Positions 1,546 to 37,179 of a stretch of 64,000 nt of DNA are shown here, in pieces (position 1 is the stretch's first letter; each line of letters starts with the position of its first letter). The position numbers and the translations under genes are program-made. The notes beneath the pieces are model-generated. The model did not search any database and was not told the DNA's origin. It saw only the letters and a list, made by a program, of their open reading frames with translations. The DNA lies in the NCBI GenBank assembly GCA_015178975.1, contig WHVD01000006.1, positions 806,001 through 870,000 on the forward strand. The letters are read 5' to 3'. The stretch is from Hysterangium stoloniferum (Eukaryota > Basidiomycota > Agaricomycetes > Hysterangiales > Hysterangiaceae).

Positions 1546-1793
1546 GTACCCCCCTATTAGGCCGAAGTCCCATAGAGGCGATTAGGTACTGAGTGATTGA
1601 AGTGATGGCTGATTGTTATGTGTCATGAAATTTACGCAATTCTGGAGGTGAGAGTTTTTGCTACTGTTCTGAGTATAAAAACCTCCAAATATTTGAATTA
1701 ACGATTTTGTTTCTTTATCCACAACTTGCATGTCGATTTGTCGGCCATTGTTCACCACTACCCCGGAAGATTCAGACATCAAAATTACCATAC

Positions 1794-2700
1794 TTCAAAA
1801 AATGTCAAAGGTTGAAGAACTTCAACAAAAACGACAGAGGATGGAGGAGATGAAGTGACGACAAGAGGAGGAGGAAAAGGTGTTGATGCGGGAGTTGAAG
1901 GAGGCTGAAGAGGTGGAACAACGGGAGTTGGAGCGAGTGAAGGTGGAAAAGGAGGTGTGGATATGGAAAATGGCAAAGGTTCAGAGGAAGAAGGAAGAGG
2001 CGGAAAGAAAGCAGCAGGAGTCTGAGGTGGTGGAAAAGAGTAAGGAGATAAGGGAGGGAAAGGTAAGTTTAAACCATAAATTTCCGTATTTCCATCTGAT
2101 AACTATTGGATACAGCAAAAAGCCATGGAGGTGGAGGTAGAGGGAGAGGCTGGGCCTTTGAGTCCCAAAGTAAGTGACATTTGTAAAAGGTCGGCAGTAG
2201 ATTAACTTCCGAAACAGAAACAAAAGGTCAAAGCTCCGGAATGGATGGAAGTCATCCATGACAATCCATGTTATCAATGTTCAATTCAGAATATGATGTG
2301 TTGGAAACAGAAGGTAAAATGAGGCAGAACTTGCTATCCCTGTGTGGTTCTCACACTTCTGTGCACTCTTGCTGTGAAGAGGGTTCCAAAAGGTGAGAAG
2401 GCTCAGAAAACTGATGACACGGAAAATTCAGGAACGGCCAGGATTACGGAAACTGAAGTGCCAAATACAGATAGTACAGGCATTGAGCTCCTCAAGGACA
2501 CTGTCGACACGTTAGTTTTTATCGGGACAGAACTTATGAAAATGCGGGATGCACTGGAGCGCCATAATGATATCCAGGAAAAAGGTTTCCATTCATTGAC
2601 CCAGAATTTCTGGAGGCAAAACGAATTTCTGGAGAAGGTAATGGTTAGCATCGGCGTTATCGCAATTTCCAAGAGGTTTTCCGATAAGGCAAGGGAATAG
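1794..2700 (+). other. Antisense coiled-coil/Zn2Cys6-like gene in element A
   Basis: It lies on the strand opposite to gag-pol, between chromodomain and 3' LTR. A Lys/Glu-rich coiled coil (about 1800-2062) is followed by an intron at 2063-2115 (GTAAGT...CAG), a 54-nt acidic mini-exon, a second intron at 2170-2217 (GTAAGT...CAG), and then a cysteine cluster at 2269-2364 spaced C-X2-C-X6-C-X10-C-X2-C-X6-C, which fits the fungal Zn2Cys6 spacing rule. An acidic, then helical tail runs to 2700. The same layout occurs in elements E and D. It belongs to a broken element, so this copy is treated as a fossil. Its function is unknown; a DNA-binding or chromatin role is only inference from the cysteine spacing. 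Confidence 0.6.
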
Positions 2701-5700
2701 CCAAATGATCTGTTGGTGGAATGTGTCGAGAAAAGGTGGGAGTCAGGAAAGGGGCTGGAAAGTGAGGATGAAGAAGTGCAGGATATGGTGGAAAGTGCAG
2801 AGATTGCGGATGATACGGGAGTTGAAGCGGAAGGAGGATTTGGGGTGTCAGAGACTTTGAAGTAGTTGCAAATATATTTTTGACTTGTATGATTTCAAAA
2901 CGAGCGTGATATTGGAAGTATCGGAAACTGAACAGAAAGAAAACAGAAAAAGGTCAGAGTGATGATAAAGGTCTGGGTTTGCTTGGATAAGCTGTGTGGA
3001 AGTCGGTAACAATTTCCATAGCGTGTCCAAGTTCTGTGGCCAATATCCATAAAGTTTCCTCATCAGTACCTTCATATCCTGCCCATTTGACTAAATAGAG
3101 CAATTTACAAGTACGTCAGTGATTGTCGATTTTAGAATCCAAGATCTCAGAAACTTCAAATTCAGGTTCTCTATCAATGATGACCGGAGGGAGCGGAGGT
3201 TGAGTATGTTCTGGGATATTGTTAGGAACACAAGGTTCTAACATGGAAATGTGGAAAACAGGGTGGACTGCTTGCATATTATCGGGAAGTCGGAGAGTCC
3301 ATGAAAGTGAACCAGCTTGTGCTATAATTTCAAAAGGGCTTAAGAATTTCTCAGCGAGTTTTTTAGAAGGTCAGGTGGTATGGAAGAATTGAGCCTTTAC
3401 AAAAACCTGATCACCAATTTTAAAATTAGGAGGTGAAATCCTGTTTTTGTCTGCGGAACGTTGATAATATTCCTGGGTGGAAGAAATAGCTTTCCAAAGT
3501 TTTTGATGTAACTCATCGAGGTTGGTAATAAATTCTTGAGCACAGATAGAAGCCAAATCTCGTTCAGAATGTACTGTGAGATTTGGATTATAACCCTTGT
3601 TGGCGAAAAAGGGAGAGACACTTGGTAGTTGCATTCAGAGAGTTATTGTAGGCAAATTCCACGATCGGAAGGAGGGATTTCCAGTTGTCCTGTTGATAGT
3701 TGCAATAGATGTGGAGATATTGTTCAATGTTTGATTAACATGTTCCATTTGTCCATCACCTTCCAGGTGATATCCCGAGGTGAAGTGTAGTTTCATGTCA
3801 AGGGCTTTTCTGAGGGCCTGGAAGAAATGGGAGAAGAACTTGGAGCCTCGATCGGAAGTTATGTGAGATGGAACACCATGCTTGGAAAATACGTGAATAA
3901 TGAAAAGTTCCACTAATTGTAAGGATGTGATTGTATCGTGAGTGGGTATGAAAATGCCTTGTTTTGAGAATCGATCCACAACAACTAGAATGGATGTAAA
4001 GCCTTCAGAAGTCAGAAGTTGTTCGATAAAATCCATGGAAATTGAGTTCCAGGGTTTTTCTGGTATCGGAAGTTGCTTGAGAAGGCTGTATGGCTTATGT
4101 CTCTGGGTTTTAGAGCGTAAGAGGTGGTGCATGACTTACAGAACTGGGTTACAAAATATCGGAGGTTGGGCCAAGTATATTCTCTACAGATTAGACCAAG
4201 AGTATTGTTAATGCCATAATGTCTGGAGATTGGATGATCGTGTTTGTACTGAAGTACGCAGAGTCAGAGATTATTGGAATCTGGAACGTAGATATGTCCA
4301 TCGAGATAGATAAAACCTTGAGAGTCTTGTGACCATTGGGGTTGGTCAGGATTATTGGGAACTTCTAGGTGTGGCTTGAGAGCCTGGTCGGAAGTGAGTG
4401 CAGAAAGGATATCTTGATGTAATTGCTCAATGTCCATAATCATAACACTATGCATAATTGGATAGTAGAGGGAAGTTGCTTGAATACATAGATGCAGAAA
4501 GTTGTTGTGTTGTAAGAACCGGTTTCAAGTTATGCGGATTAACAACAGCATAGTTACTTTCCCCCTCTTTAGGATAGACGTCCCATCATCGAGTCATGGC
4601 ATCTGATTTTCCACCAAGGCGTCTGGGTCGGAAACGGATAATCATGTTGAAGGCGGAAAGGAATTCAGACCAGCAGGCTTGCCGGTGGGTCAAAAGTTTA
4701 GTGGTAGAAAAATATTCGAGATTTTTGTGATCGGTAACAATGTCAACGGGAGTTGCAGAACCTTTGAGGTAATGACGCCAATGTTTGAAAGCTTCAAACA
4801 TTGCCAAAAGTTCCTTATCATGAATGTCGTAGTTGAGTTTGGACACTGAAAGTGTCCGAGAAAGGAATGCGACCAGATGAATTTCACCATCGGAATCTTG
4901 AATGGAAAGAATTGTGGCAATTACATAATCAGAAGCATCAGTTTCCACAATAATCAGAACATCAGGCTTCCAGTGAGAAAGAATCAGGGTGGAAGTGAAA
5001 GCATTTTTCAAAGTCTGGAAAGCAGAGCGGCATTTGTCATCAAAGACCCATGGTTGAGTTTTATGGGTAAGATGAGTAAGTGGTATTGTAATATCCAAGT
5101 AATTCCAAATAAAATGATGGTAAAAGTTTGCGAAACCTAAAAATGACTGAATGTCTTTGACTTTCTGTGGTTTGGGCCAATCATGGACAACTTGAACCTT
5201 GGTTTCATCCATATGGAGACCCTCGGGTCCAATAATGAAACCTAAGTATTCAATAGAATCCATGTCAAAGTAGCATTTTTTACCATTGGCAAAAAGACCG
5301 TTTTTATGGAGTCTTCGGAAGACTTCATGGACTTGTTCGTCGTGAAGAGCGGGATCCTCGGAAAATACCAAAATGTCGTCCAAATAGACTATAACACATA
5401 CATCAAGCATGTTGGAAAATATATCATTAACAAAACTTTGAAAAGTGGAAGGGGCGTTGGTAAGGCTGAACGGCATAACCAACCATTCAAAGGATCCATA
5501 GCGAGTCCGAAAAGCAGTTTTCCATTCGTCACCCTTGGCAATTCAGACCAAATGATAGGCGTGTTTAAGGTCTATTTTGGTGTAGATCCGAGCTTTCTGT
5601 GGGGCATTGAGTAAGTCGGTAACAAGTGGAAGTGGGTACTTATCTTTCCGTGTGATGGAGTTTAATTCTCTGAATTCGACACAGAGTTGAAGGGAGCCAT

Positions 5701-7109: not shown

Positions 7110-7440
7110 TTCTGTAAGGGCAACCCCTGCAGCCTGTGGTACTCACACTATGCTAGCAGGAGGGAATCCGATGTAATATTAGATCTGATATATATATACA
7201 AGTAACTACCTAACTCACCTAGCAGGAGGGAATCCGATGTAATATTAGATCTGATATATATATACAAGTAACTACCTAACTCACCTAGCAGGAGGGAATC
7301 CGAAGAGAAACAGTCTAAGGAATTCTCCCTGCAAGGTGTGACCCATAGGCACCCAGTAGTCTAAAAATAACTCTACCTATTACAGAACAGGGGGCCTTCC
7401 CCCAATGGAACATTACTACTAATGAGAAGGAGAGGGAAAG
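7110..7440. repeat. Repeat H, copy 1, with internal tandem duplication
   Basis: Begins gcaagggcaaccccY-like and holds two tandem copies, plus part of a third, of a unit of about 70 bp starting ctagcaggagggaatcc. A diverged copy with the same internal duplication is at 13157-13470. It interrupts the gag of element A. The class is unknown; it could be an LTR or a non-autonomous element. Confidence 0.6.
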
Positions 7441-8640
7441 CGATGGATGGCATGGGGTTGGACTGTAGAAATCATATGACTACAAATAATCCTCAAACAG
7501 TGTACCCCAATTGGAAATCTCAACATATTATCACTGCAGAACCATTGGAACTGAGATTGGATGTGCATCAGTCCCAACATTGCAATATAAGTTGATAATG
7601 CATGAGAAGGACTCAACCGCAATCCAATATCAATTTCAACTATCCCTTGCATCCACCCAACTACAGTGATATTGACACTATCATATGCATGGGAAGAAGA
7701 CTGTCCTCAACCACACAAGGAATGTGAAACGATAATGACCACCACAACATGCTACTTGACTCCCTTCTGGAACTGGGAATTGCCTTAACAATGGTCCTCC
7801 ATGATCTCCTACTGGAATGAACATTGCCACATAATGGGTTCCCAGTGTTGATGAGGGATGAGTACGTTGAACTACCTGATCAAATTGGTAGTGAAGCTTT
7901 TTGGAGTCGTTGTCATATGGGGAAATGAAGGCAGGATTACCATGAGCATATGGGAGTCGAGCACCTTGTTGACGAAGGTAACGAATATGCTCCTTAGAGG
8001 AGTATGAAGTGGTTTCTGATGATAAGGAGAAACAAGACTTCTGTGGTTGGAGTTCGATGTGGGAGGGGGGTGATTTGGCATAGGAGTTAATGGGTACTTT
8101 GATGATGAGGCAGTATCAAGCATAATATGGATGATTTTCAGATGTCTGATGAGGCTGCTGGAGCTATGTTGAATCGTCTTCAGTGCCCAATTATATATAG
8201 ATATAAGGTGGGACTGGTAACTGTAACCAGGAACTCTAAGCCAGATCTGGAATATTTTAATTTCCATCTCAGTTACACTCTCCACTGGTCCCATGTCCAT
8301 AACTTCCAGACAGTTAGCTCTTCTATGTCACAATTCATATTCTCCTTGTCATCTGAACTTGCCTCAACCAGACACTTCTCAGGAAGGACAAGAGTATTAT
8401 CACATGAATGATAAGGAGGAAGCCAAGAAGCAGTCACACCATGTTTGGAAATAATGCCATCAAGTTCCAAGCAAATGTAAGATCCATCTTTAGTCTTGAA
8501 CTTAACTTCAAACTATCCTATATATATCAGGGTTTCATTTGCCTATTTAATTCCTTCTCAATCTAAGAGTTCCACTCTTCTTGAAACCAGAACAGATTCA
8601 ATGAGATAAGGGGCATGACGGGCTGTCTCATATAGGAGAT
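7441..8640 (-). other. Unidentified coding-like remnant
   Basis: On the minus strand several open stretches (7872-8300 and 8273-8470) have protein-like composition but match no family I recognise. They directly follow the ATP synthase beta fragment in the same orientation, so they may be part of the same chimeric cluster of captured gene fragments. No intact gene is supported. Confidence 0.3.
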
Positions 8641-8644
8641 AGTG

Positions 8645-9742
8645 AGGGGGAAATCTGGTTGTACATCTGACAGTAAATCTATTGGCTGGTATATAGACGG
8701 CTTGAATGGAGGTGATATACCCTTTCTTGGTGTTGGTAATACACTCCTGCATGCCACCCATATCAGTTGAAAGAGTGGGTTGGTAACTGACAGTGGATGG
8801 GTGTGAAGAGTTGCTAGATTCTGACCGTTCAATATACGAAGAATATTGACTATATGAGCATGACTAGAGAGTATTGACTGATCTGTACAATACGGTAGTT
8901 TACTAGACAGGCAGTACTAGTAGTGAGACATGAAGAACATCACTAGAGCAACTGTACAGTTGCTCGTGATGACTAAGTAAGAGAAATAAGAGTTGACCGT
9001 TGCAGTACAACTCACAGTAAGGGTAAAAGTAAAACAGCCCACAAGAAGATGAATATCTAAAGTAGAGTGATGAGAGCACAAATCGACAGTAGTGTTGATG
9101 AGCACAGCAATTTGAGTAAGGGACTTGACCTTCACAGTTTGAGTCCAGAAGCTCGCAGTAAATTAGAAACACTACCTGTATTGGTAGCTGAGATGTTACC
9201 CTTGACACCTCTCGCTATTCAATGTTCTGAGTCATTACGAGGTGGTGTCTGTTGGGTAAAAAAGTGTCTGTCTCTTTGGCACCGAGTGCGCCCATAGGTA
9301 TACACAATGCTTTGAACTAAGAAATAAAGGTATGCTCAAAAGGTATAAGGAATTAAGGAAATAAAATAAAAGGTAGATAATAATGTACTATAATATGTCT
9401 AGTATTTAACAGTCCGATCATGATATATGCATACCCTTCACAATAGGATATGACCAAGAAGAGCAGACACTTCTGAACTGCCTTGTGTGGAGTGGAAAAT
9501 GTTGTCAATAAACAAAAGGACATCCTGGCCTTCCTCATCACGGAAGTATTCAGCAGTTATCAAACTGGTAAGAGTGACACGAGCACGAGCACCCAGAGGC
9601 TTGTTCATCTGACCAAAGATGGGTGCTACCTTAGAATCACCCTTGAGGTTGATGACACCTTTAACAGGACCACACTTGTCAATGGGTTTACCAATGACCT
9701 TCTGACCATGGACGAGACCTTCAGTATCATCCATTGTGTGGC
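8645..9742 (-). pseudogene. ATP synthase F1 beta subunit fragment, split by an LTR
   Basis: Minus-strand 9735-9443 encodes recognisable mitochondrial F1-ATPase beta sequence, including [19 protein letters not shown] and SEVSALLG. The following residues (QPT...TDMGGMQE...[11 protein letters not shown]) lie at about 8795-8680, on the far side of LTR F (8802-9442). Compared with the known family, two internal blocks are missing: one after GQKV, and one after KGV that removes the P-loop. Both junctions keep the frame and fall at residues shared by the two sides (V and GV). It is intronless. This is a broken host-gene copy, not a working atpB/ATP2. It was probably a captured or retro-copied fragment. 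Confidence 0.85.
8802..9442 (-). repeat. Solo LTR, family F variant
   Basis: 641 bp, TGTGAAGAG...CCCTTCACA, with 5-bp flanks atggg/atagg (4 of 5 match). It matches the F LTRs at 14047-14450 and 30455-30928 in reverse. It interrupts the ATP synthase beta fragment, whose reading resumes on the other side. Confidence 0.8.
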
Positions 9743-15371: not shown

Positions 15372-15915
15372 TGTTAAGTACTGTGTCGGGAACTTATTCC
15401 GGAACTATCGGAAAGTCACCGGAAAGTCGGGAACTGTCGGATAGGGTCAGGATGTTGGCTTCAGCTTATGTGCTGCACCTCTACGCAAACACTCAAAGTC
15501 CTTAATTTCAGAGGTGAGACTTACAATGGAAGATATGGATATTCAGAGTTCCAAAGAGTTCCGAATATTGAGCATACAGAAAGACGGAAGAAGGAATAAG
15601 AAACTAAGTTGATATCAGATCTAAGGTAAAGTACAAATTCGTGGAAACTAATATAAGTCTTCTCGTTATTGTACTACAAACTGAGACCATAATAAGACGG
15701 AAATGGAAGTATTCTTAAAATGGAAATACAATAAGACATATCGGGGAGACAATATTCCGAAACGGGAATATAATAGATAAACGAGTGAATACTTGTCAAC
15801 GGACAAATTACCAAATGTGGAACAAGGGAAGAATGCGGAAGATACGGTAATCATGATGTTCTGTAGTCGGAGATCGGGAGTCAGATATTGAAACATCCGG
15901 GAACGGGTCGTAACA
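15372..15915 (-). repeat. Solo LTR family A with perfect TSD
   Basis: 544 bp TGTTAAG...CGTAACA, flanked by agagc on both sides (15367-15371 and 15916-15920). It lies inside the LTR of element D. Confidence 0.9.
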
Positions 15916-18247: not shown

Positions 18248-18695
18248 TACCCTATATACACCCGACTCTCTGTATCTCATGGACCAGTCACCAGACTCTG
18301 ACCGGACTCCTGGAACCCCTCTAACAGAGATAGAACCCTGCTCTCGTTATGGTCAAACAGTCTGTCATGTGTCTCATGTACCAGTCATTGGACTCCACCG
18401 GACTCCAAACTCCACCCTATATACACCTGATACTCTGTATCTCACGGACTAGTCATCAGACCCTGACTGGACTCCCCAGAACCCCTCTAACAGAGCCCCA
18501 TTCCCATTATGGTCTAATGACCTGTCATGATTTGTTCTCCACTCCCGTTCCATTCCGTCCCTAATTCCCAGTTTAGTATTTACTTATTTCATTTTATGTG
18601 TAATAGTTCTGCCCCTCATTAATACCAGATTTGGTATTATTACATTTCAAAGTCTATATATGTAAGTCTGCTACATTCATATACTTAGAATCCAG

Positions 18696-19120
18696 TTTGA
18701 CCCTCGAACAAGTTTGACCCTCGAACAAGTTTGACCCTCGAACAAGTTTGACCCTCGAACAAGTTTGACCCTCGAACAAGTTTGACCCTCGAACAAGTTT
18801 GACCCTCGAACAAGTTTGACCCTCGAACAAGTTTGACCCTCGAACAAGTTTGACCCTCGAACAAGTTTGACCCTCGAACAAGTTTGACCCTCGAACAAGT
18901 TTGACCCTCGAACAAGTTTGACCCTCGAACAAGTTTGACCCTCGAACAAGTTTGACCCTCGAACAAGTTTGACCCTCGAACAAGTTTGACCCTCGAACAA
19001 GTTTGACCCTCGAACAAGTTTGACCCTCGAACAAGTTTGACCCTCGAACAAGTTTGACCCTCGAACAAGTTTGACCCTCGAACAAGTTTGACCCTCGAAC
19101 AAGTTTGACCCTCGAACAAG
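18696..19120. repeat. Minisatellite, 25 x 17 bp
   Basis: Exactly 425 bp, 25 copies of tttgaccctcgaacaag that I see as identical. It starts right after cttagaatccag, downstream of the TATA-like box of LTR C. Long open frames across it are an artefact of a stop-free repeat unit. Confidence 0.95.
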
Positions 19121-19203
19121 TTACACCCCTGATCCAGTCTCTAGTCTTCTTGTCTGTCTGCACACTTGATTCCCAGAACTCCCACGGGAACTCCGGAATC
19201 TAC

Positions 19204-20246
19204 ATGAAATATCAGGTTTATTGGAAGTTGACTGTTTTTCCTTGTTGGATTTCTTGTCTTTCTTCCAATTGGAATTTGATTTGCCAGTATTATTGCCAGA
19301 GTTGCTGGAGTTAATGCCAGAGTTGTTGCCAGAAGACTTGTTGGTCAACACCTTATTGCTTTGAGAACATTCCATCGGATTTTCTCGGGAAACTTCCACT
19401 TTCATTCCCAATAGTGGGCAGCAGATTTCTGAACTTTCATCCACATGAGTTGGAGAGTTTTCAGCTTTCCTTCTTTGCAGATGTTGTCTTTTAGGTATGA
19501 CAGAAGACCCATATAGAAATGGTGTCTGAGGGTGGAATCGTCCCAACCACAATGTGCAGTAAGGGTATTGAACTTGATGAGATAATCAGAAACCCATTGA
19601 TTGTCCTTCATCTTGAGTGCCATTAGTTCATTTTCTGCTTCACCAGATTGATTGTAAGGTCTGAAATTAGTTTCCAGTTCTTCAACAAAGGTCTCCCAGT
19701 CATTAAGCCTTGCAGGTATCTCATCAGATATTCCAGAAAGTCTGGGCTCAAACCAATCCTGAGTAGTATCCTTAAGATAAGAGAGCATGAAATTGACTTT
19801 TTGACTGTCAGATTTAAATGTGGTGGGCCAATCACAGAAACTGAAATGGCATTGAAGAAGGAAATTCTTCAAAATTTTCAGGCCCTTGCCAGTAAATGGT
19901 TCAGGTTCTTTGACTCTGGTACAGGAGGATTCTTTGCTTTCCTCAGGAGATTTCAGATAGTCAGCAAATTTTACAATGGAGTTGATGAACATCATTTCAG
20001 TCAGATCATTGGAACTTTTCTTTTTTGATTTGTCCAGCTAATCTTCCTCAGAAACTTCAGGAGTGTTGGGATATTTTGCTACCTCAATGACTTCTTCAAT
20101 GGAAGCTGATGTTGTGGGCTGAACTGGGGTTTCAGGTTGAGTGGTATAAAGTTGCAGTGGGGATCCAAGTTGGGATGGTCCTTCAGCAGCTTTGCATTTG
20201 AGACCCATGATGAGTGAGTCACAGGATTGAGATTTGATACATATAC
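19204..20246 (-). mobile_element. Element A2: gag fragment of a chromovirus
   Basis: Minus-strand gag of the family of element A, starting at an ATG near 20209 about 40 nt after the LTR. It includes a retrotransposon gag domain (19402-19995), with the usual FVEELETNF motif, and the Asn/Ser/Lys-rich linker before the zinc knuckle. It is cut at 19204. Its 5' LTR is the partial LTR A at 20247-20690. Broken. Confidence 0.85.
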
Positions 20247-21189: not shown

Positions 21190-21445
21190 AGGCTCCAGCT
21201 TGTTGGGGTGAAGCCCCCCAAACCCCCCCACATCAACAACTCTTAAGTATTTCTGAGACTCATTGTCAAAGAACATAGAAATTGCCTTAGAAAGGAAATT
21301 CTGTTAGAACTGAAACTCTGTTCAAACAGAAAGTGTTTAACAAACAGAAACCATTTAAAGAATGGAAAATGTTACAAAAGGGAAACAACAGTTGCAAAGG
21401 GAGACAACAGTTGCAAAGGGAGACAACAGTTGCAAAGGAAACAAT
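21190..21445. repeat. A-rich spacer with three degenerate repeat units
   Basis: No gene. About three copies of acagttgcaaagggagaca precede the main array and look like its ancestral form. Confidence 0.5.
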
Positions 21446-21958
21446 GTTTACAAAAGGAAACAATGTTTACAAAAGGAAACAATGTTTACAAAAGGAAACA
21501 ATGTTTACAAAAGGAAACAATGTTTACAAAAGGAAACAATGTTTACAAAAGGAAACAATGTTTACAAAAGGAAACAATGTTTACAAAAGGAAACAATGTT
21601 TACAAAAGGAAACAATGTTTACAAAAGGAAACAATGTTTACAAAAGGAAACAATGTTTACAAAAGGAAACAATGTTTACAAAAGGAAACAATGTTTACAA
21701 AAGGAAACAATGTTTACAAAAGGAAACAATGTTTACAAAAGGAAACAATGTTTACAAAAGGAAACAATGTTTACAAAAGGAAACAATGTTTACAAAAGGA
21801 AACAATGTTTACAAAAGGAAACAATGTTTACAAAAGGAAACAATGTTTACAAAAGGAAACAATGTTTACAAAAGGAAACAATGTTTACAAAAGGAAACAA
21901 TGTTTACAAAAGGAAACAATGTTTACAAAAGGAAACAATGTTTACAAAAGGAAACAAT
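21446..21958. repeat. Minisatellite, 27 x 19 bp
   Basis: Exactly 513 bp, 27 copies of gtttacaaaaggaaacaat that appear identical, followed by one variant unit. All three frames of the + strand stay open, so the apparent 284-aa reading frame is not evidence of a gene. Confidence 0.95.
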
Positions 21959-21994
21959 GTATACAAAAGGAACAAGGAGTCTTTTGACCTTCAC

Positions 21995-22813
21995 TGTTAG
22001 GATACGTACAGGGTGGGTCTCCAGAGAAACCCATGGAATATCCGGTAGGACTTGGCTTCAGTTTATAGGCTGTGCCCTCGCTAGCTCGTGTTGTCCAATT
22101 TCAGATGGGTGGACGGGAATCCCGGGGAGTCTGGGCGGGGGTCGTGGTCGAGAGGTCGTAGGTCGGAGGTCATGGGTTGTGAGTTGAGATGGTGTGAGAG
22201 AGATAGATGTGCAGGAGCCTGTGGGCTCCGACTAGTGCAAGCGGTGTAATTCAAGTAGGGATTAGAGCGGGAAAATGTATTAGATTACTGGGGGGAATCT
22301 AAGCCGATTTTCTGACTGGATTGTATGTACAATATCTGCCAGTTTAAATATGTAGACCGTGGAGTAAATGTCATACCGAATCCAGTAATAATGAAATGAA
22401 GTGAGCAAAACATAAAACGGGAATAGTAAACACCAAATTGGTGTTAGGAATGGGATGGAACGGAGCGGAGTCCAAATGGTGACAAAGCATAACCCATAAC
22501 GGGAAACAGAGCGGGAGCGGAGTCCAAATCGTGACAGGTCATTTGACTAAAACGGGAACGGGACTCAGTTAGAGTGGTGACAGGATTCTGAGCAGGGTCC
22601 AGTAACTGATGCGTGGGACGAAGACGGACATAGACAGAGACGGAGTCCGGGGGAAGTCCGGTGACTGGTATGTGTCATAATGAGGTCGAACGTAACAAGT
22701 CTTGAAGTACGGAGTCCAGGCGGGAAATCCTATAAACAGACAATTGGTGCGTATAGGGTGTGGTGGCGTACAGGTTAGTGCCTGGAGTCTGGCGGGATTG
22801 TCCAGTCGTAACA
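21995..22813 (-). repeat. Solo LTR family E with perfect TSD
   Basis: 819 bp TGTTAGGATACG...CAGTCGTAACA, flanked by ttcac (21990-21994 and 22814-22818). It is the reverse of the LTRs of element E. Confidence 0.92.
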
Positions 22814-24450: not shown

Positions 24451-25826
24451 TGTTACGACTGGAATTCCCACCAGACTCTGGGCACTAACTTATATGCACC
24501 TGCACCCTATACGCACCCATTGTCAGTTCACTGGAATTCCCACTGGACTCTGTACGTCAGACTTGTCTACATTTGACTTCGTTACGTTGTGTTTCAGTCA
24601 CCGGAATACTCACCAGACTCCATCCCTGTCTATGTCCGTCCTCATCCCGTGTGTCAGTCACCAGACCCCACTCATAAAACCCATCATCCCTCTAACAGAG
24701 CCCCATTCCCATTTTAGTCAAATAACCTGTCACAATTTGGGCTCCGCTCCCACACCATTTCCCGTTATGGTTTATGATTTGTCACGATTCGGACTCCGCT
24801 CTGTTCCGTCCCATTCCTAACACCAAATTTGGTGTTTACTATTCCCATTTCATGTTTTGCTAGTTTTGTTTCATCATTACTGGATTTGGTATGTCATTCA
24901 CTCCACGGTCTATTTAAACTGGCCAATGTTGTACATACAATCCAGTCAGAAAATCAGCTTAGATTCCCCCCAGTAATCTAATACATTTTCCGCTCTAAAC
25001 TCCTACTTGAATTACACTGCTTACACTAGTTGGAGCCCACAGGCTCTGGCGCATCTATCTCTCTTACCTATCTCGACTCATGACCTCTCGACCTCCCGTA
25101 CACCTGTCTGAAATTGGACAACACGATCTCACGAGGGTGTAGCCTATAAGCTGAAGCCAAGTCCTACCGGATATTCCGCAGGTTTCTCTGGAAACCCACC
25201 ATGTACAGTGGGTCAAAAAACTGCCCCAATGTTTGTGCATTTTAGAAGGATTGATATTGTGTGAAGGAATTACATCAGCAAAAATTCTGACAAATTCACA
25301 TGATATACTAGAACATGTTGGCTATCTACCAACTTAAGAAATCATGTGATTCCAATCAAAGCTCATTGCTCAATAAATCAAACAAAATAATCACTCATTG
25401 GGGCAGTTTTTTGACCCTCTATTATTTTACAATCTAATACTTTGTATGACCCCCGTTTGCCTTTAAAACTGCTTGTATCCTCTTAGGCATGCTTTTTATT
25501 AGCTTCTAAGATGTCTCTGGTGGTATTTCAGTCCACTCCTTTGCCACCCTGTCCCATAATTCATGTGTGTGTAACATTGAAAATCAGAGAAAATAATAGA
25601 GGGTCAAAAAACTGCCCCAATGAGTGATTATCTTGTTTGATTTATTGAGCAATGATCTTTGATTGGAATCACATGATTTCTTAAGTTGGTAGATAGCCAA
25701 CATGTTCTAGTATATCATGTGAATCTTTCAGAATTTTTGCTGATGTCATTCCTTCACACAATATCAATCTTTCTAAAATGCATAAACATTGGGGCAGTTT
25801 TTTGACCCACTGTACATACCCTAACA
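24451..25826 (+). repeat. 5' LTR of element E, containing a MITE
   Basis: TGTTACGACTGG...CCCTAACA. Without the 607-bp MITE it is about the length of the 3' LTR. A TATTTAAA box is at 24911, and agtcagaaaat, the likely transcript start, is at 24944-24954, about 33 bp downstream. Confidence 0.9.
25206..25812. mobile_element. Tc1/mariner deletion derivative (foldback MITE)
   Basis: 607 bp flanked by TA (25204-25205 and 25813-25814). Inverted repeats of about 225 bp begin cagtgggtcaaaaaactgcc. The core of about 150 bp encodes, on the minus strand, the carboxy end of a Tc1 transposase (VAKEWTEIPPE, SMPKRIQAVLKANGGHTKY) with one in-frame stop. It is a deletion product of an autonomous Tc1 element; it has no intact transposase and could move only in trans. 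The 3' LTR of element E supplies the empty site. Confidence 0.88.
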
Positions 25827-26054: not shown

Positions 26055-27058
26055 GGTAGGAGTGGGTCATGTGAATCATCAACATGTCATGTGACCTTAT
26101 TTGTATCAATTTGGCATGTTGAACTTTGTTCATTCATCTCCTTGACTCCTTACCACCACTATGAAATCCATCTCTACTGAAAAGCATTCTTCTGTTGTTT
26201 CTCTCCTCAATGAGGGATATTCCCATTGTCAAATTCAAGCTAGGACTGGCCTGGGGAAGGGTATTATTGGCAGGATCAGTAAGGAGGTAGAGGGGGATAA
26301 GGAAAATTATCCTGGTGGCCATCCTTCCAAGCTTTCCCTTATGATAAACAGTCAATTGTCTGTCAAATCAGCTCTGGGAAGCTTGACAATGCTGTCCAAG
26401 CCACCCAATTCATAAATTCCATCATATCTACCTCTGTCACTCCTCAGACGGTTAGGAATGTGTTGAAAGAAGCTGGCTTTAGGTCAGCAACAAAGAAGAA
26501 AGTCCCTATGCTCAAGGGGTCTCATTGTCAGCAACATCTAAAGTTTGCCCAATACCATGAAAATTGGACTATGGAGGACTGGAAGAGGGTGTTGTGGACT
26601 GATGAGACAAAAATCAATAGGATTGGGTCAGATGGGAAGGTATATGTTTGGAAGCAACAAGGGGAACCAGTATCAGACAGGACCACCACACCAACTGTCA
26701 AACATGGAGGGGGGAATAACTTGATGATTTGGGAGTGTATGGGCTGGAATGGGGTGGGGAAGCTGATAGAGATGCAGGGGAACATGGATGCAGTGCAGTA
26801 TTGTGAGATCTTGGAGGAGGGAGTGGAGGAGAGCATTGAAAGTTTGGAGATGGCTGAGGATACATGGTACTTCCAACAGGACAATGATCCAAAACATACC
26901 TCAAAAAAGGCAGACCAGTGGTTTTCTGACAATAACATCATTCCCATGAAGTGACCTGCCCAATCCCCTGATCTAAATCCCATTGAACACCTCTGGCAAC
27001 ACCTCAAGGCCAAACTCCAACAATATGACATACCACCCAAAGGAGTGACAAGGGCAAA
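26055..27058 (+). mobile_element. Tc1/mariner element with damaged transposase, inside gag
   Basis: The transposase starts at ATG 26161 with a helix-turn-helix N terminus (RTGLGKG...GRISKEVEGDKEN). The catalytic part has WTDET (first D), QQDNDPKHTSKKA (second D) and SPDLNPIEHLWQHLK (E), the Tc1 DD34E arrangement. It has a frameshift near 26345, and a TGA at about 26953 where a Trp is expected before PAQSPDL. It stops at about 27058, lacking the last 40 or so residues, which are the very part kept by the neighbouring MITE. The ends are not clearly resolved. It cannot make a working transposase. Confidence 0.85.
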
Positions 27059-28917
27059 GGTGTCGAAAATCCTCTGTCCAATGATCGACTGCCACTTTCG
27101 GATCCCGCCTCTGAGTATTTAGCAATCACTTTAGAAAGGTTGATGAATCATATGCTCGGAGAAGGCAAAAAGAAAAATCCGGAATCCCCACAGTCAAATG
27201 TCAATGCTCCGGAACCCTTCACGGGTTCCAACCCAAACAAACTCTCTACTTTCCTCATGCAATGTCACTTCAATTTCCGCGATCGATCCGCTGCTTTCTC
27301 CATGGACTCCTGAAAAGTCAACTACGCACTTTCATACTTGTTGGGATCTGCATTGAAATGGTTCGAACCGGCTTTTAGCAGACTTTCCAAGGAAGAGCCG
27401 CTTTGGCTCGAAGATTGGGATGCTTTTGTTGAGGAGCTTGAAACCAACTTTGGCCCATATGATCCAACAGGAGAAGCCAAGAATAGTCTCAAAAATCTTT
27501 GTATGAAGGACACGCAGTGCATCACGGACTACATCATCCAATTCAATAATCTTGCAGCTCATTGTCAGTGGGGCAATCCCACTCTCTGCCACCAATTCTA
27601 CACTGGTCTGCTGTCCCACCTTAAAGACAAAGTCTCGAAAGGAGAAGATGGCAAGCCAAAAACCCTGTCCCATATGCGCCTCAAAGCTCAAAACGTGGAT
27701 GCACGTTATTGGGAAAGCAGTTGCCCACGAGACCTCTGTGGACAAAGTAAACAAGTCCACGGCCAATAAAACCAACAACAACAACTCGTCAACCAGCAAC
27801 CAAAACTCCACACAATCTGACAAGAAGAACAATAAAAAGTCTTCTAACAACAACAACAACAAGGACAATAACAAGGGTCAACAGTCTGGCAAGCAAGCTG
27901 GAAAACCCGACCTCTCAGGCAAACTCGGACCCGATGGCAAATTGACCCCACAGGAAAGACAACGTCGCATGGACAATAACCTCTGTCTCTTGTGTGGGAA
28001 ACCCGGTCATTGAGTCCTGGAATGTCTGCTGGCAAAAGCAAACTCTGCAAAGGGTCAAACAGCCAAGACCTCCATGGAAACCCTGTCGAAGGACAAACTG
28101 GCTTCCGACTTGAAAAAAGAGTAAGCAACCCCGCAGACTCCACGCGGGTTGGGGGTTGCATTGCCTCTCCGCACATTCAAGAGTTTACCCACCTCAACGC
28201 ATCCGCTCTTTCACATTCCAATTCATTTTTCATTAAATTTATGTCTAATATGATTCTGAAATTCATTTTTTCAGCCCTTATAGATTCCGGCTCAACTCAT
28301 TGTTTTTTAGATACAAAATTCACACAAAAAAATTTGTTGTCAACTTACCCGATAAATCCTGTCAGTCTCTGCCTCTTCGATGGCACAAGTAATTCAGTTG
28401 TCACCCAAGCTTGTGATTTATCCATCTGTTTCCTGTGTGGAACATCTCAATTGGTCACTTTCTATGTGACCCAGTTAGACTCAAGTTGCTCAGTGGTCCT
28501 AGGACACAACTGGCTTACCTGCTACAATCCGTTGATTGACTGGATAGCTAACAGTATAACATTCTGGACTCCTGCGGCAACCGAGGAAACTGTGCCCGTA
28601 ACGGCCTCCACAGCACTCATGGCCTTCCTGGCACCTGCAATCTCGAGGACTCCTGTGATCCCTACGGCACCCATGGCTTCCCCAGAACCCACAGCACCTC
28701 CGTCTATTTCTCTGATTAATGCTGCAGCTTTTATTAGGGCTACAAAAATGGATGGGTCCCAGGCGTTCACTATCAACTTAAAAATTGATGAAGCAACTGG
28801 ACATTTTTCAACTCTGGTATCTGAATCTGAGCAAGCCACTGACCTAGAAGGCATCCTGGAGAAATATCATGACTTCATGGATGTTTTTAGCAAGTGGAAA
28901 GCTGACCAGCTTCCACC

Positions 28918-29639
28918 TGTTACGACCGTGTCGCAACCCTATCGGTCCCGAGGTTATCGCCACTTATCAACGTTTCAAGTCACCATCTCGGAAACCATCA
29001 GCCCCAAAGCTGATGTATGTTTTCGCGAAGATCAAACTCCGTTTACGCCCACATCAAAATAACTCGTATTGTCTGGTCAAACTTTGATACGTCCCCTTTA
29101 TTATGTTGATCCGTTCAACCTTATGTTTCACATATGTCTATCTATATTTGTAGTCCTTGAACTATTTCCTTTTATCGTAATTACGCTCTCGGTTATCATC
29201 AGCCTCTGAACTAATCATAAACTTCCCGTTCCTAGTCAAGCTTATTGTTAATGCCGTTTTCCACCCTTCTCCCCATTAGTATTTTCTAGACGCCTGTTAC
29301 TTGTATATAAACCCGCTGTAGTTGTAGTTACTAGGCAATCAGAATATTGACTCAGAACACCCTCATACGCCTGTAATAGTCTCATACTAAGAATCCCCCC
29401 ATCCGCCTCCGCGTGCGCTCGCCCACTCCCGGCCCTGACCCCTTGGCCCGACGCTCGACTTGTCCTTCAGTTCCGATTGGTATCACGCCGAAAAGAGCTC
29501 TTTAGGATTAGTTTTCGCCCACCCGAAATCTAAGGACACCCTACAGATATTTGCAAGGGCGCAGCACATAAGCTGAAGCCAAGTCCTTCCAATCGGTCCC
29601 TGTCGGCCACCGACATTAGTCAGTTTTCAGTTCTTAACA
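28918..29639 (+). repeat. Solo LTR family D between protease and RT of element E
   Basis: 722 bp TGTTACGACC...TTCTTAACA. The flanks ccacc/ccgcc agree at 4 of 5 positions. It has a TATATAAA box near 29310 and the conserved 3' module at 29556-29585. Confidence 0.9.
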
Positions 29640-30454
29640 CCGCCCCATAGAGAATACGACTTAAAAATCAATCTCAAAGATGGCGCCCAGCCACCCTAGG
29701 ACATATTTACCCACTCTCATCCATGGAACTTTCCACGATCTGCAATTTCCTGGATGAACATTTGTCCATAGGTTTTATCAGACCCTCAAAGTCTCTTTTT
29801 GGAGCACCTGTTCTGTTTGTCAGAAAAAAGGATGGATCCCTTAGACTATGTGTTGATTTTAGAGGACTCAATGCTGTCACCAAAAAGGATAAGTATCCAC
29901 TTCCACTCATATCTGATCTGCTCGATGCTCCGTGGAATGCCCAGATTTACACCAAAATAGATCTCAAACATGCCTATCATTTGGTCTGGATCACCACGGG
30001 CGACAAATGGAAAACCACTTTTAGAACCCATTATGGGGCCTTTGAGTGGTTGATGATGCCCTTTGGACTCACCAATGCTCCATCTGTTTTTCAGTGTTTT
30101 ATCAACGACATTTTCTCCGACATGCTCGATGTATGTGTTATTGTTTACTTGGACAACATTCTTATCTACTCTGAGAATCCCGTGGAACACGACAAACAAG
30201 TCCATGAAGTTCTCCGGAGACTCAGACAACATGGTTTATTCATGAATGGTAAAAAATGTACTTTTGACACAGACTCTGTGGAATACCTGGGTTTCATAAT
30301 GGGACCCGACGAACTCCACATGGTCGAAACTAAAGTGCAAGTCATCAAAGATTGGCCTGAACCCCGAAAAGTTAAAGATATACAATCCTTCCTCGGCTTT
30401 GCCAATTTTTACAGACGGTTTATCTGCGGATATTCTGACATCACGGTACCCCTT

Positions 30455-30928
30455 TGTGAGGAGTATGCTTTTGCCACAATTTCATTGTGGTAAAACACTC
30501 CTTTTATTTTATTTATATTTTACACATTCTATTCATATTTTTCTATCTTTTATATTCTTCGAATATTGCATCATTTCATTAGTTCGAAGCATTGTGTATA
30601 CTTGTAGGTGCACTCGGCACCAAATGAAACTCAGACACACTTTTACCCAAGCACCACCACTCATAAGACATAAACTAGGTCTACTACGAGCGGTGATCAG
30701 GGTAACGTGTCAGCTACCACATAGGTAGCATCATCTGAACTACTGAACACTTCTGGCCTCAAACTATAACAGCCAAGGCCTCCACTCGATCCATTACACT
30801 CATTGACTCCTGTATCATCTAGTGCTCTCTCTCTCACTTTCTCTCATATTGCACCGAAGAGGTTGATTCCTCCTCTTCTACTCATTTCTTCGTATATAGA
30901 ACAGTCAGAACTTATACCACTCTTCACA
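30455..30928 (+). repeat. Solo LTR family F between RT and RNase H of element E
   Basis: 474 bp TGTGAGGAG...TCTTCACA. The flanks ccctt/ctctt agree at 4 of 5 positions. Confidence 0.88.
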
Positions 30929-33209
30929 CTCTTATCCATCTTATGTGTATGGATACTCCATGGAATTTTAACGATAAGTGTCAAAAAGCTTTCAATCTTT
31001 TAAAAAATTCTTTTTCTTCAGTTCCTATTCTGTTGCATTGGAAACCAGACTTCCCACTCATTGTTGAAATGGATGCCTCAGACTATGCACTTGGAGCCAT
31101 TCTATCTATCCAGACTCTGACGGAGAAGTCCACCCCGTGGCTTTTCTGTCCTGGACTTTTACCGGAGCAGAGCTCAACTATGACGTTCATGATAAGGAAC
31201 TCCTGGCAATCTTTTCAGCTTTCAAAGCGTGGCAACACTATTTGGAAGGCTTGGGAACTCCGATTGACATTGTTACAGATCACAAAAACCTGGAATATTT
31301 TTCTACTACAAAACTTTTGACCCGTCAGCAGGCCCACTGGTCTGAATATCTATCTGCTTTCAATATGATTATCCACTTTTGACCCAGCTGTCTCGGTGGC
31401 AAACCTGACGCTTTAACTAGATGATGGGACGTCTACCCTAAAGAGGGGAGCAACAACTATGCCACGGTAAACCTGCACAACCTGAAACCTATTTTCACAA
31501 ATCAACAACTTACTGCATCAGTCCGCATAACTTTCCTCATCAATCCCATTGTCCGTGGAATTATCATTATGGATATTGAGAAGTTACATCAAGATATTCT
31601 ATCAGCAATTCCGTTAGACCCGATTACTAAAGCTCACCTTGACAATCCCGTGGACCCCGACCAACCCCGGTTGTCTCTTGATCAGCATGGTTTCATTAGA
31701 CTTGATGATCAGATCTATGTACTGGACTCTGACGGCCTCCACCTCAGGATCCTTCAATACAAACATGATCATCCACTTTCAGGACATTTCGGGTACAACA
31801 AAACTCTATCATTAATAAGAAGAGAATATACTTGGCCCAGACTCTGTGGATTTGTTAAGCACTATTGTAAATCTTGCACTACTTGTCCCCACTCGAAATC
31901 TCAGCAACACAAGCCATACGGCCTTTTGAAACAACTCCCAGTACCGGAACATCCATGGAATTCTATCTCTATGGATTTCATTGAACACCTACCGGACTCC
32001 GAAGGCTTTTCCGCCATTCTAGTCATTGTTGACAGATTCTCAAAACAAGGTATATTCATCCCTACTTATGATACAATTACGTCCATGCAGTTAGCAGAAC
32101 TTTTCATTATCCACGTATTTTCCAAGCACAGAGTTCATATCTCACTTCTTTAGATCCCTCAGGAAATCCTTGGACATGAAATTACATTTCAGGTCTGGAC
32201 ATCACCCGGAAGGTGATGGACAAACCAAACACGTCAATCAGACATTGGAACAATATCTCCGCGTATATTGCAATTACCAACAGGACAATTGGAAATCCTT
32301 GTTACCACTTGCAGAATTTGCTTACAACAATGCACCCTCAGCCACTACTGGTGTTTCCCCGTTCTTTGCAAATAAAGGATATAATCCAAATATTACAGTA
32401 CATCCAGAATGAAATCTCACCTCTGCTTGTGCTCAAGAGTTCACCACAGACCTCCACAAGCTCCATGAGGAACTCCGGACTGCAATAAAGTCCGCCCAAG
32501 AGCAATATCAACATTCAGCGGACAAACACCAGATCCTACCACCCAACTTCAAGATTGGCGACCATGTTTTTGTCAAAGCTCAATTCTTCTGGACGACCTG
32601 TCCATTAAAAAAGCTTGCTGAAAAATATTTAGGTCCCTTTGAAATTATCACACAAGTAGGTTCAGTCTCTTGGACCCTACAGCTTCCAGATAGCATGCAC
32701 GCAGTACACCCGGTATTTCATGCTTCTATGCTAGAACCTTGTACTGCTAACACTATCCCAGATCGCGTGCAATCTCCGCCTCCTCTGGTCATTATTGACG
32801 GAGAACCTGAGTTTGAAATCTCACAAATTTTAGATTCGAAAATTGACAAGCATCGACACACTTGTAAACTGCTTTACTTGGTCAAGTGGACGGGTTACGA
32901 GGGCACCGATGAAGAAACCTCATGAATTTTGGCCACAGAACTCAGTAATGCCATGGAAATCATTACTGACTTTCATACAGCTTACCCACTCAAACCTGGA
33001 CCACTATCGTCTCTCTGACCACACTCCATGGACCCCATGTTACATTTGGACTCATTTTCATTATTCCCTGTCGCCCTATGTCTCCCTTTGCTTTTACAGG
33101 TTCTGACATGTTTTCAAGTCCTTAAGCGGAGTTTCCACAGACTTTGATTTTTTATGTTTTTCACACCTTACTTTTATTTTCAAAAAAATTATTAAACTTT
33201 TATATTTTA

Positions 33210-34880
33210 TTTCAATCTACATTTATGGGGCTATGTTTCTGCCCAACCTCAGCCATCTCCTGAGGAAGCTCCACTACCTTTGCAGGCACCCCGTCCTCAT
33301 CTGACCTGGCATCCTCGGAACTCCTGGCTTGCAGCTCCTCATATATATATCCGCCAAACTCCGCAAGGAATTTCCAAAACTCTGAGCGGAGCCCACGGAG
33401 CTCATTCGCCACCACTATTTGGACCTTGTTGCTTTTTCAGAGCAACTCATTCTGGGCCTCTATGCCCTCAGCGATCCGCCCCAACACATTGTCCAACCTG
33501 GACATCCCATGTCTGTCCCACTAACATCCCACACCCCGGGTCCTGTGGGTTGCTCATGGACGAGTGAGCACCTCGCCTTGAGGTGTGTGCATTGGTAGCA
33601 TCCCAGTCCCTGCCCAGACTTTCGATTGCACTCTGTGTTCTGGTCATTGCAACCAGAACACCGTGGATCATTCCGTGTCAGTAGGTGGACTGGTGCCGCC
33701 TTCCTTGCCTTCTGTTGATATGATTAGTTCCCCGGATATCCCACAGACCTGAGACTTACCTTTTGGGGGCTCTCCAGCTCCCCCTCAGACTCCGATTTGA
33801 CCTCTCTCACTTTGCGCTGAAAATGCTAAGTCAGTTAAACTCAACAAGTTGAAACATTGGGACTTACTTTGCCTGCGGCAACCACAGCCCTCTCCGCAGC
33901 CACCTGCACAGCCTCCTCCTCATCCCTCTTCCTCTGCCTCTTGTTATGACCGTGTCACAACCCTATCGGTCCCGAGGTTATCGCCACTTATCAATGTTTC
34001 AAGTCACCATCTCGGAAACCATCGGCCCCGAAGCTGATGAATGTTTTCGCAAAGATCAAACTCCGTTTACGCCCACATCAAAATAACTTGTATTGTCTGG
34101 TCAAACTTTGATACGTCCCCTTTATTATGTTGATCCATTCAATCTTATGTTTCACATATGTCTATCTATATTTGTAGTCCTTGAACTATTTCCTTTTATC
34201 GTAATCCCGCTCTCGGTTATCATCGGCCTCCGAACTAATCATAAACTTCCCGTTCCTAGTCAAGCTTATTATTAATACCGTTTTCTGCCCTTCTCCCCAT
34301 TAGTATTTTCTAGATGCCTGTTACTTGTATATGAACCCGCTGTAGTTGTAGTTACTAGGCAATCAGAATATCAACTCAGAATACCCTCATACGCCTGTAA
34401 TAGTCTCATACTAAGAATCCCCCCATCTGCCTCTGCGTGCACTCACCCACTCCTGGCCCCGACCCCTTGGCCCGACGCTCGACTTGTCCTTCAGTTCCGA
34501 TCAGTATCTCGCCGAAAAGAGCTCTTTAGGATTAAGTCTTTGCCCACCCGAAATCTAAGGACACCCTATGGATATTTGCGAGGGCGCAGCACATAAGCTG
34601 AAGCCAAGTCCTTCCAATCAGTCCCTGTCGGCCACCGACATTAGTCAGTTTTCAGTTCTTAACACCTCTCCACCTCTTCCTCCACAGCCAAGGCTGCCTG
34701 GTATTCCCTGTCAAGAGCTTCCTCCACCTCCCTCGCCTCCTTTTCCACCTCCTCATGTTGTCGACACTGTTCCTCTCGCTGTGCCAGCATTTGGGCCACA
34801 CTGGGTGGCACCCGATATGGAGTGCCCGTGGAGGGCCTGGTGGTCGGCATAGGATGTCTTGGCCTTGGCTTGGGTCCCAT
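33210..34880 (-). other. Antisense coiled-coil/Zn2Cys6-like gene in element E
   Basis: On the strand opposite to gag-pol, starting near 34880 with a Pro-rich segment and a Glu/Arg-rich coiled coil that is split by LTR D. It continues through an intron at 33817-33867, a 57-nt mini-exon, an intron at 33712-33759 (both GTAAGT...CAG on the minus strand), and a cysteine cluster at 33660-33568 spaced C-X2-C-X6-C-X9-C-X2-C-X6-C. A helical, acidic tail extends to about 33210. The distance from second intron to first cysteine is the same as in element A, to within one base. A fossil copy; function unknown. Confidence 0.6.
33942..34664 (+). repeat. Solo LTR family D with perfect TSD
   Basis: 723 bp TGTTATGACC...TTCTTAACA, flanked by cctct (33937-33941 and 34665-34669). 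It interrupts the antisense gene of element E. It is very similar to the copy at 28918, so both are fairly recent. Confidence 0.92.
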
Positions 34881-35088
34881 TATGGTGAGACGGGGGTAAT
34901 AAAGAAGAAGAAATTTTCATTTTTTCAATTTTTATATAGGCTCATCGCATCTGAACCTTACCTTCCAGATCACATGACTCTTTGACACATACGTGTAACC
35001 AACATGTCTTTTGACACATGTGCATAGCTGACAAGAACCTTATCAAGGTCTAGAGCCTCTTTGGGACTTCGGCATAAAGGGAGGGTAC

Positions 35089-35911
35089 TGTTACGACTGG
35101 AATTCCCGCTGGACTCCAGGCACTAACTTATACGCACCCGCACCCTATACGCACCCATTGTCAGTTCACCGGAATTCCCACTGGACTCCGTACATCAGGC
35201 TTGTCTACATTCGACTTCGTTACATTGTGTTTCAGTCACTGGAATACTCACTAGACTCCATCCCTGTCTATGTCCATCCTCGTCCCACACGTCAGTCACT
35301 GGACCCCACTCGTAAAACCTGACATCCCTCTAACAGAGCCCCATTCCCATTTTAGTCAAATGACCTGTCACGATTTGGACTCCACTCCCACTCCATTTCC
35401 CGTTATGGTTTATGATTTGTCACGATTTGGACTCCGCTCCATTCTGTCCTGTTTCTAACACCAAATTTGGTGTTTACTATTCCCATTTCATGTTTTCTAG
35501 TTTTGTTTCATCATTACTGGATTTGGTATGTCATTCACTCCACGGTCTATTTAAACTGGCAGATGTTGTACATACAATCCAGTCAGAAAATTGGCTTAGA
35601 TTCCCCCCAGTAATCTAATACATTTTCTGCTCTAAACTCCTACTTGAATTACACCGCTCACACTAGTTGGAGCCCACAGGCTCTGGCACATCTATCTCTC
35701 TTACCTATCTCAACTCACAACCTCTCAACCCACAACCTCTGACCCAACAACCCCTCGACCCATGAACCCTGCCTGGACTCCCCAGGATTCCCGTCTGCCT
35801 GTCTGAAATTGGACAACACGATCTTGCGAGGGTGCAGCCTATAAGCTGAAGCCAAGTCCTCCTGGATATTCTGTGGGTTTCTCCGGAAACCCACCATGTA
35901 CATACCCTAAC
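35089..35911 (+). repeat. 3' LTR of element E
   Basis: 823 bp TGTTACGACTGG...CCCTAACA. It is preceded by the polypurine tract aaagggagggtac and followed by catac, which also precedes the 5' LTR. Confidence 0.93.
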
Positions 35912-36493
35912 ACATACAGTTCCAACCAGAGTTCCCACTGGGACCCACCCATCACATCTATCTGTACCCAACACGTCTATACCTATACCTGTCTGCACCT
36001 AACCCTCTGTGTCTCATGCACCAGTCCTCGGACTCTATTGGACCCCCTACACATCCAACCTGTCTGTATCCAACATTATCTCACAGACCAGTCACCAGAC
36101 TCCAACCGGACTCCCAGAACCCCTTTAACAGAGCACAGAACCCTGCTCCCATTATGGTCAAATGGTCTGTCATGTGTCTCATATACCAGTCGTCAGACTC
36201 CACTGGACTCTGAACTCCACCCTATATACACCCGACACTCTGTATCTCACAGACCAGTCACCAGACTCCCGGAACCCCTCTAACAGAACCCCATTCCCAT
36301 TATGGTCTAATGACCTGTCATGTTTCAGACCCTGCTCCCATTCTGTTCCGTCCCTAATACCTAGTTTGGTATTTACTTGTTTCATTTTATGTTTAACAGT
36401 TCTGCCTCTCATTAATACCAGATTTGGTATTATTACATTTCACAGTCTATATAAATCCCTTATATTCATGTACTTAGAATCCAGTTTCAATCT

Positions 36494-36782
36494 CAAACAA
36501 GTTACTCCCTCAAACAAGTTACTCCCTCAAACAAGTTACTCCCTCAAACAAGTTACTCCCTCAAACAAGTTACTCCCTCAAACAAGTTACTCCCTCAAAC
36601 AAGTTACTCCCTCAAACAAGTTACTCCCTCAAACAAGTTACTCCCTCAAACAAGTTACTCCCTCAAACAAGTTACTCCCTCAAACAAGTTACTCCCTCAA
36701 ACAAGTTACTCCTTCAAACAAGTTACTCCCTCAAACAAGTTACTCCCTCAAACAAGTTACTCCCTCAAACAAGTTACTCCCT
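36494..36782. repeat. Minisatellite, 17 x 17 bp
   Basis: Exactly 289 bp of caaacaagttactccct, with one unit carrying a single substitution near 36712. It occupies the same place in LTR C as the 25-unit array at 18696-19120, with a related but distinct unit of the same length. Confidence 0.95.
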
Positions 36783-37179
36783 CATCCTGATCCAGTCTCT
36801 AGTCCTCTTGTCTGTCTGCACACTCGATTCCCAGAACTCCCATGGGAACTCCAGAATCTGCATCTTTCTGTATGCATTCTGTCAGCTCGAAATATGGACA
36901 CCCGAATGAGTGTACGAGGGTGCAGCCCATAAGCTGAAGCCAAGTCCATTCCCAGCAGTACCATACCTTCTGGTAATTATTCTGATACCACACTCCCTTG
37001 TACTAATATCCCCGGAAACTCCCCAGATGAGTATTATAGTACAAAAGCTAATATACAGATAAGGGTCAAGATTTTCTGACTGTCCTTCTTCACTCGTATC
37101 ATGGTCCTTTTATGCTTTTCATTGTTTACCTATGACTATGTTATGATTTAATAATGAAATCATTCATGATGTCAAACTG

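Follow-up and report, generated by a model that had tools for sequence, protein, structure and literature searches.

The gene brtn was reportedly described by Zhao et al. in 2011. It is carried in antisense orientation by Boty-like elements (Ty3/gypsy) of Botrytis cinerea (PMC7264820, PMC8365987, PMC4227169), placed between pol and the 3' LTR (PMC7264820) of elements that have a chromodomain in gag-pol (PMC4227169), according to the portions of these papers that were available. Plant antisense open reading frames (aORFs) at this position are listed in the available portions for Grande (gene23), RIRE2, Retand (TRP28) and PvRetro13 (PMC7264820, PMC11963269). There, the Grande gene is credited with its own upstream promoter and a nuclear protein (PMC7264820, PMC11963269), and the Retand gene with a TRP28 domain for which DNA binding is predicted (PMC11963269). 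Among retroviruses, the accessible text of the same sources describes HBZ of HTLV-1 as a nuclear protein (PMC11963269) and places the HTLV antisense promoter within the 3' LTR (PMC7264820). The function of antisense accessory genes of LTR retrotransposons is called unknown in the available part of PMC7264820.

Here we analyze a stretch of 64,000 nucleotides from Hysterangium stoloniferum, the window, in which two elements, A and E, carry an additional gene antisense to gag-pol, with the chromodomain on one side and the 3' LTR on the other (Table 1). By its sequence, element A is classified as a chromovirus, with gag, protease, RT, RNase H and integrase in Ty3 order, a C-terminal chromodomain and an LTR pair; in Pfam, SH3_Tf2-1 reaches 68.3 bits (cut-off 30) and Chromo 24.9 bits (cut-off 25.1). 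Its pol is split by a solo LTR (28918-29639) related to the one in exon 1 of the antisense gene. Element E, which is on the minus strand, has LTR blocks at 974-1483 and 15372-15881. Between the 5' LTR and gag of A, the window also contains a piece of an HTH_Tnp_Tc3_2 transposase (26301-26954, plus strand), which is probably a further nested insertion. Minisatellites with units of 17, 19 and 17 nt, several copies of which are near-identical, occupy 18575-19237, 21282-22098 and 36410-36851.

Table 1. Positions of the antisense genes and of their host elements in the window
Feature	Position	Strand	Remarks
TATA box, antisense gene A	34929..34938	-	58 nt upstream of ATG
Antisense gene A, exon 1, first part	34665..34880	-	ATG 34880; charged, coiled-coil-like by inspection
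Solo LTR within A exon 1	33942..34664		723 nt, flanking 5-bp duplication AGAGG
Antisense gene A, exon 1, second part	33868..33936	-	
Antisense gene A, intron 1	33817..33867	-	51 nt, GT-AG
Antisense gene A, exon 2	33760..33816	-	57 nt, acidic
Antisense gene A, intron 2	33712..33759	-	48 nt, GT-AG
Antisense gene A, exon 3	33460..33711	-	six-cysteine cluster 33660-33568
TATA box, antisense gene E	1674..1680	+	128 nt upstream of ATG
Antisense gene E, exon 1	1802..2062	+	in-frame TGA 1856-1858
Antisense gene E, intron 1	2063..2115	+	53 nt
Antisense gene E, exon 2	2116..2169	+	54 nt, acidic
Antisense gene E, intron 2	2170..2217	+	48 nt
Antisense gene E, exon 3, up to final Cys	2218..2364	+	cysteine cluster 2269-2364, TGA 2320-2322 inside
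5' LTR of element A	24451..25207, edges approximate	+	direct repeats with 35.1-35.9 kb, blocks 89-95% identical
gag-pol of element A, decayed	27314..32925	+	Pfam matches
Domains of element A	gag 27314, protease 27980, RT 29651, RNase H 30823, integrase 31425, SH3/chromodomain 32413-32925	+	
3' LTR of element A	35089..35902	+	purine tract ahead of it
RT / RNase H of element E	4586..5542	-	strand opposite to E antisense gene

A sequence-only reading had reported an antisense spliced gene in both elements, and its coordinates and spacings are all correct, including the 51 nt that separate intron 2 from the first cysteine codon in A (33660) as well as in E (2269). A six-frame scan of the window finds the six-cysteine pattern, with a middle loop of 4-16 residues, at these two sites only. 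The antisense ATG lies about 210 bases from the LTR edge in A and about 260 in E. The architecture claimed by that reading is present in both elements, but both gene copies turned out to be decayed. In A, the start of the coiled-coil exon, ATG 34880, is on the far side of the inserted solo LTR, and the frame of exon 3 is closed early by a stop at 33462-33460, leaving 83 codons versus about 165-171 in intact copies. With the solo-LTR insertion and the premature end of exon 3, the window copy of gene A is a pseudogene; so is that of gene E, with stops at 1856 and 2320.

A search of the genome (111 Mb, 554 contigs) detects the antisense gene at at least 300 places. With a 65-residue piece of A exon 3 as query, the best 150 of 947 first-look candidates were scored, all with E <= 2e-28; about 118 of these 150 have no internal stop, and every stop present among the matches listed is TGA. 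The E query gave 296 candidates, and about 134 of the best 150 have no internal stop, so that about 252 of the 300 A and E matches listed are stop-free in the matched piece. A third subfamily was found through another query (best 150 scored of 679, in partial overlap with the A list). The exon-intron plan, the six cysteines, the TATA box ahead of the ATG and the antisense site between chromodomain and 3' LTR recur among the copies. The cluster that the sequence-only reading had expected in related elements is thus present in further copies and in a third subfamily. A chromodomain is found on the opposite strand at 44 of the 50 loci fetched by the A and E queries (the others being L017, L024, L040, L042, L046 and L058), and all six longer loci have gag-pol, whole or partial, in the expected order on the opposite strand. 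An automatic gene finder returned the canonical plan in about 22 of the 50 loci, and no model or other sites in the remainder, partly owing to broken exons. By definition, the gene is an antisense additional gene between pol and the 3' LTR (aORF-3R).

Individual loci give some insight into the history of the family. L028 differs from L022, L026 and other A-type loci by 6-8% in pol, but in exon 3 by 24-27% from the main A group and by 18% from L022, suggesting that the antisense gene may have been exchanged between subfamilies. At L062 (approximately 3267-8759), a 5.5-kb element is nested in an E-type element. It has two 1055-bp LTRs that are 100% identical, a duplication TATTG, no pol match beyond an 18-residue piece, and a decayed remnant of the antisense cluster adjoining one LTR. 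It probably arose recently as a non-autonomous derivative.

Purifying selection acts on exon 3 with about the same strength as on the chromodomain. The pooled pN/pS of exon 3 is 0.263 in A (13 disjoint pairs) and 0.278 in E (8 disjoint pairs), and the value for the chromodomain of the same elements, taken as control, is 0.34. The sample comprised 26 of the 30 loci of A and 16 of the 20 loci of E, in disjoint pairs with a p-distance of at least 0.03 and at least 100 codons. Nonsynonymous changes were fewer than under a null in which each change was moved to another site with identical base and CpG state, with 314 versus 455.6 expected among 649 changes in A, and 213 versus 275.7 expected among 401 changes in E. 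For the remaining frames, pN/pS ranged from 0.68 to 1.44, save for the reverse frame with shared wobble positions (0.31 and 0.33); in each of the 13 copies looked at, that frame is interrupted by 3-8 stops. Of 8 A copies, 4 have another reverse frame open, yet its pN/pS of 0.97 indicates no selection. Stops between A pairs were not depleted (18 versus 19.1 expected).

Indels spare the exons relative to the introns. Per 100 nt, they number 0.07-0.41 in the exons and 2.92 and 4.18 in the introns of A, and 0.18-0.31 in the exons and 0.63 and 3.65 in the introns of E. In the upstream non-coding stretch of E, indels are as scarce as in exons, and substitution rates in A are not higher for introns than for exons. 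The cysteines are retained at 154 of 156 sites in 26 distinct A copies and at 113 of 120 sites in 20 E copies, compared with means of 87% and 86%, respectively, for the other columns. The sequence-only reading had named selection on the cysteine codons across copies as one of its tests, and purifying selection on both frame and cysteines is indeed seen among the genome copies. A TATA box is located at -56 to -64 from the ATG in 26 of the 27 A copies with a recognizable start, and at -128 or -129 in 15 of the 18 such E copies. The most conserved stretch of A (p 0.07) extends from 230 to 100 bases upstream of the ATG and also contains the purine tract. The conserved TATA box suggests that the gene has a promoter of its own within the internal region of the element. 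Because of the codon-level selection, the frame-sparing indels, the kept cysteines and the TATA box at a fixed distance, we conclude that the antisense gene is a true accessory gene, carried by a large group of Ty3/gypsy elements with a chromodomain.

The predicted protein has about 290-320 residues, with a charged N terminus, an acidic part from the mini-exon, the six-cysteine cluster and a C-terminal part; judged by inspection, the product of exon 1 is probably a coiled coil. Across the cluster, A and E show homology (48 columns in hhalign, E 3.5e-7), with a middle loop of X9 in A and the third subfamily and X10 in E. Zn2Cys6 clusters have the spacing C-X2-C-X6-C-X5-12-C-X2-C-X6-8-C and are nearly two-fold symmetric. 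The spacing found here fits, and the full motif is present in 55 of the 76 loci L009-L084. Invariant in 18 rows are the six cysteines, K31, L44 and K45, the cysteine part being circular since the rows were chosen for the full motif. The assignment to the Zn2Cys6 type, made by the sequence-only reading, holds for the spacing and only partly beyond it. With the Pfam profile Zn_clus (PF00172, cut-off 21 bits), the third subfamily scores 21.3, with its halves reversed; A stays under the cut-off with 15.5 bits for a 60-residue piece and 10.9 bits for 170 residues, and the E cluster is without a match.

When the halves of the third-subfamily cluster were scanned separately, the first aligned to profile positions 15-31 and the second to 2-18. 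The half-motifs of A and E, scanned singly, had no profile match, and the best stretch of A (14-31) aligned to profile positions 16-32, in agreement with a swapped order. In the one subfamily that is readable, the profile alignments thus place the basic, presumptively DNA-contacting half second, in swapped order compared with the canonical cluster. Given the near two-fold symmetry, a swapped cluster could still hold two zincs. A PDB profile search gave no match at E up to 10, and the AlphaFold model of the exon 3 piece from the window (mean pLDDT 65, which is low) has strands only, versus the helices expected of Zn2Cys6. Pfam PF04195 (TRP28) was not reported at E up to 10 for exon 3 of A and E, exon 1 of A or the 60-residue cluster pieces, and none of 13 pattern matches in viral contigs was confirmed. 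No host donor of the swapped cluster was identified; the Zn_clus genes seen elsewhere in the genome, at L001, L002, L003 and L006, are canonical. At L002 (G000:C115:73449-76550), several canonical Zn_clus motifs are closely spaced, some of them in one 203-residue open frame, and contig C56 has match clusters similar to this group.

What might the protein do? The makeup of the protein, in which a zinc-cluster-like module is joined to a coiled coil and an acidic part, would fit a nuclear regulator. Our leading explanation, which we give even odds, is that the product of this accessory gene is a nuclear DNA-binding regulator working in trans on DNA of its own element. According to this model, the antisense gene would be transcribed from the internal TATA promoter, and its two short introns would be spliced. 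The cluster would bind zinc and DNA, and the protein would dimerize, then enter the nucleus and act in trans on the LTR promoter, the chromatin state or the insertion of the element. The introns would outlast retrotransposition because the gene is antisense: in the sense genomic RNA they are reversed, and should hence be unspliceable there. This makes a general point, namely that introns can persist through retrotransposition in an antisense gene, while their loss is to be expected from a gene in sense orientation.

A more specific version, which we regard as improbable, casts the protein as a half-swapped Zn2Cys6 controller that would bind CGG-N3-CCG palindromes in its own LTR and set copy number or subfamily identity in the manner of a phage immunity repressor, and the gene and the LTR would diversify more quickly than pol. 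Mean divergence is 0.188 for the gene, 0.225 for the LTR and 0.078 for pol in A, and 0.139, 0.225 and 0.090, respectively, in E, the LTR means being raised by three rows at about 50%. When CG/TG/CA sites were left out (in 16 of the 30 A loci and 10 of the 20 E loci), exons 1 and 3 of A still diverged by 0.105-0.120 versus 0.037 for the chromodomain, so that the faster divergence of the gene than of pol is a CpG effect only in part. Co-divergence of LTR and gene beyond pol was not significant (A 0.08, p 0.35; E 0.43, p 0.09), and the LTR as direct target is for this reason put forward as a proposal. We rejected CGG pairs in general as operators: A LTRs are enriched in them over dinucleotide shuffles, but the pol region is enriched too (10 of 30 A loci). 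Among single spacings (13 of 30 A loci, as for the 9-mer below), CGG-N3-CCG is foremost in A LTRs, with 38 occurrences in 13 LTRs versus 2.6 expected, and pol and the gene are led by other pairs. The 9-mer palindrome CGGAGTCCG occurs 23 times in 13 upstream parts versus 3 times in gene and pol; it is present one to three times in 10 of the 13 A LTRs and absent from the other 3. As the search was exploratory, with 39 patterns tried on related copies, we treat this palindrome as a lead only to a possible operator site.

Instead of tuning the LTR promoter, the protein could bind the element's DNA and lift host methylation or heterochromatin, a doubtful explanation that nevertheless has a precedent: VANC proteins of plant VANDAL transposons relieve host methylation or heterochromatin. 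A coiled coil with a zinc-cluster-like module, and a gene and LTR that outpace pol in divergence, would also suit an anti-silencing factor. Moreover, the restriction of stops in A copies to TGA, among the matches listed, is what CpG decay would give, and makes methylation of the element plausible. The lack of significant co-divergence between LTR and gene counts against this explanation. Alternatively, the zinc-binding coiled coil could serve particles, nuclear import or the choice of integration site and have no part in transcription, which we consider unlikely. Assistance to the pre-integration complex has been proposed for plant antisense proteins (PMC7264820, in the part available), and the E cluster, which lacks the basic residues found in A and the third subfamily and has few basic residues, would be compatible with such a role. 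However, the basic half-motif HLKARC of A and the third subfamily resembles the DNA-contacting half of Zn2Cys6.

It is very unlikely that the antisense RNA is what regulates, with transcription of the 3' region giving double-stranded RNA and the protein being secondary. A role of antisense RNA is discussed for other elements in the available part of PMC7264820, but RNA alone would leave the codon-level selection, the kept cysteines and the frame-sparing indels unexplained. Chance open frames, or the recent capture of a host gene by a few copies, deserve almost no credence in spite of the decay of both window copies and the canonical Zn_clus genes in the genome, since one plan, TATA box and splice sites are shared by hundreds of copies from three or more diverged subfamilies, and both the selection tests (about chromodomain strength) and the indel tests contradict them.

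The family numbers hundreds of copies under strong purifying selection, conserves its introns and TATA box, and has a recognizable candidate DNA-binding module, which makes it a clean case of an antisense accessory gene. No zinc-cluster antisense gene in fungal LTR elements was found in a literature search that included PMC3248453, with most subscription journals outside it and sources available in part. The class of antisense genes is known; the spliced structure and the half-swapped Zn2Cys6-like cluster appear to be new, subject to comparison with brtn. Like brtn of Boty as described in the available text, the gene belongs to a fungal chromodomain gag-pol element and lies antisense between pol and the 3' LTR. 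With Zn2Cys6 transcription factors (Zn_clus, PF00172), it shares six cysteines and a fitting spacing, but the cluster is mid-protein, its halves are reversed in the third subfamily, and A and E are under the cut-off. The plant aORFs have the same position and orientation, are kept in most copies and are suspected regulators, as far as the available text goes; they differ in that no Zn2Cys6-like cluster is mentioned in the available parts of PMC7264820 and PMC11963269. Retand differs further in belonging to a non-chromovirus lineage, according to the same partial text. HBZ is spliced and has a leucine zipper. It resembles the gene described here in being a retroelement antisense gene close to the 3' LTR, as the available accounts have it, and differs in that the TATA box is here internal and not in the LTR, and that a cysteine cluster is the candidate module for DNA binding. 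Should the protein act on the element's own LTR, retrotransposons would have independently reached an antisense regulator like that of HTLV.
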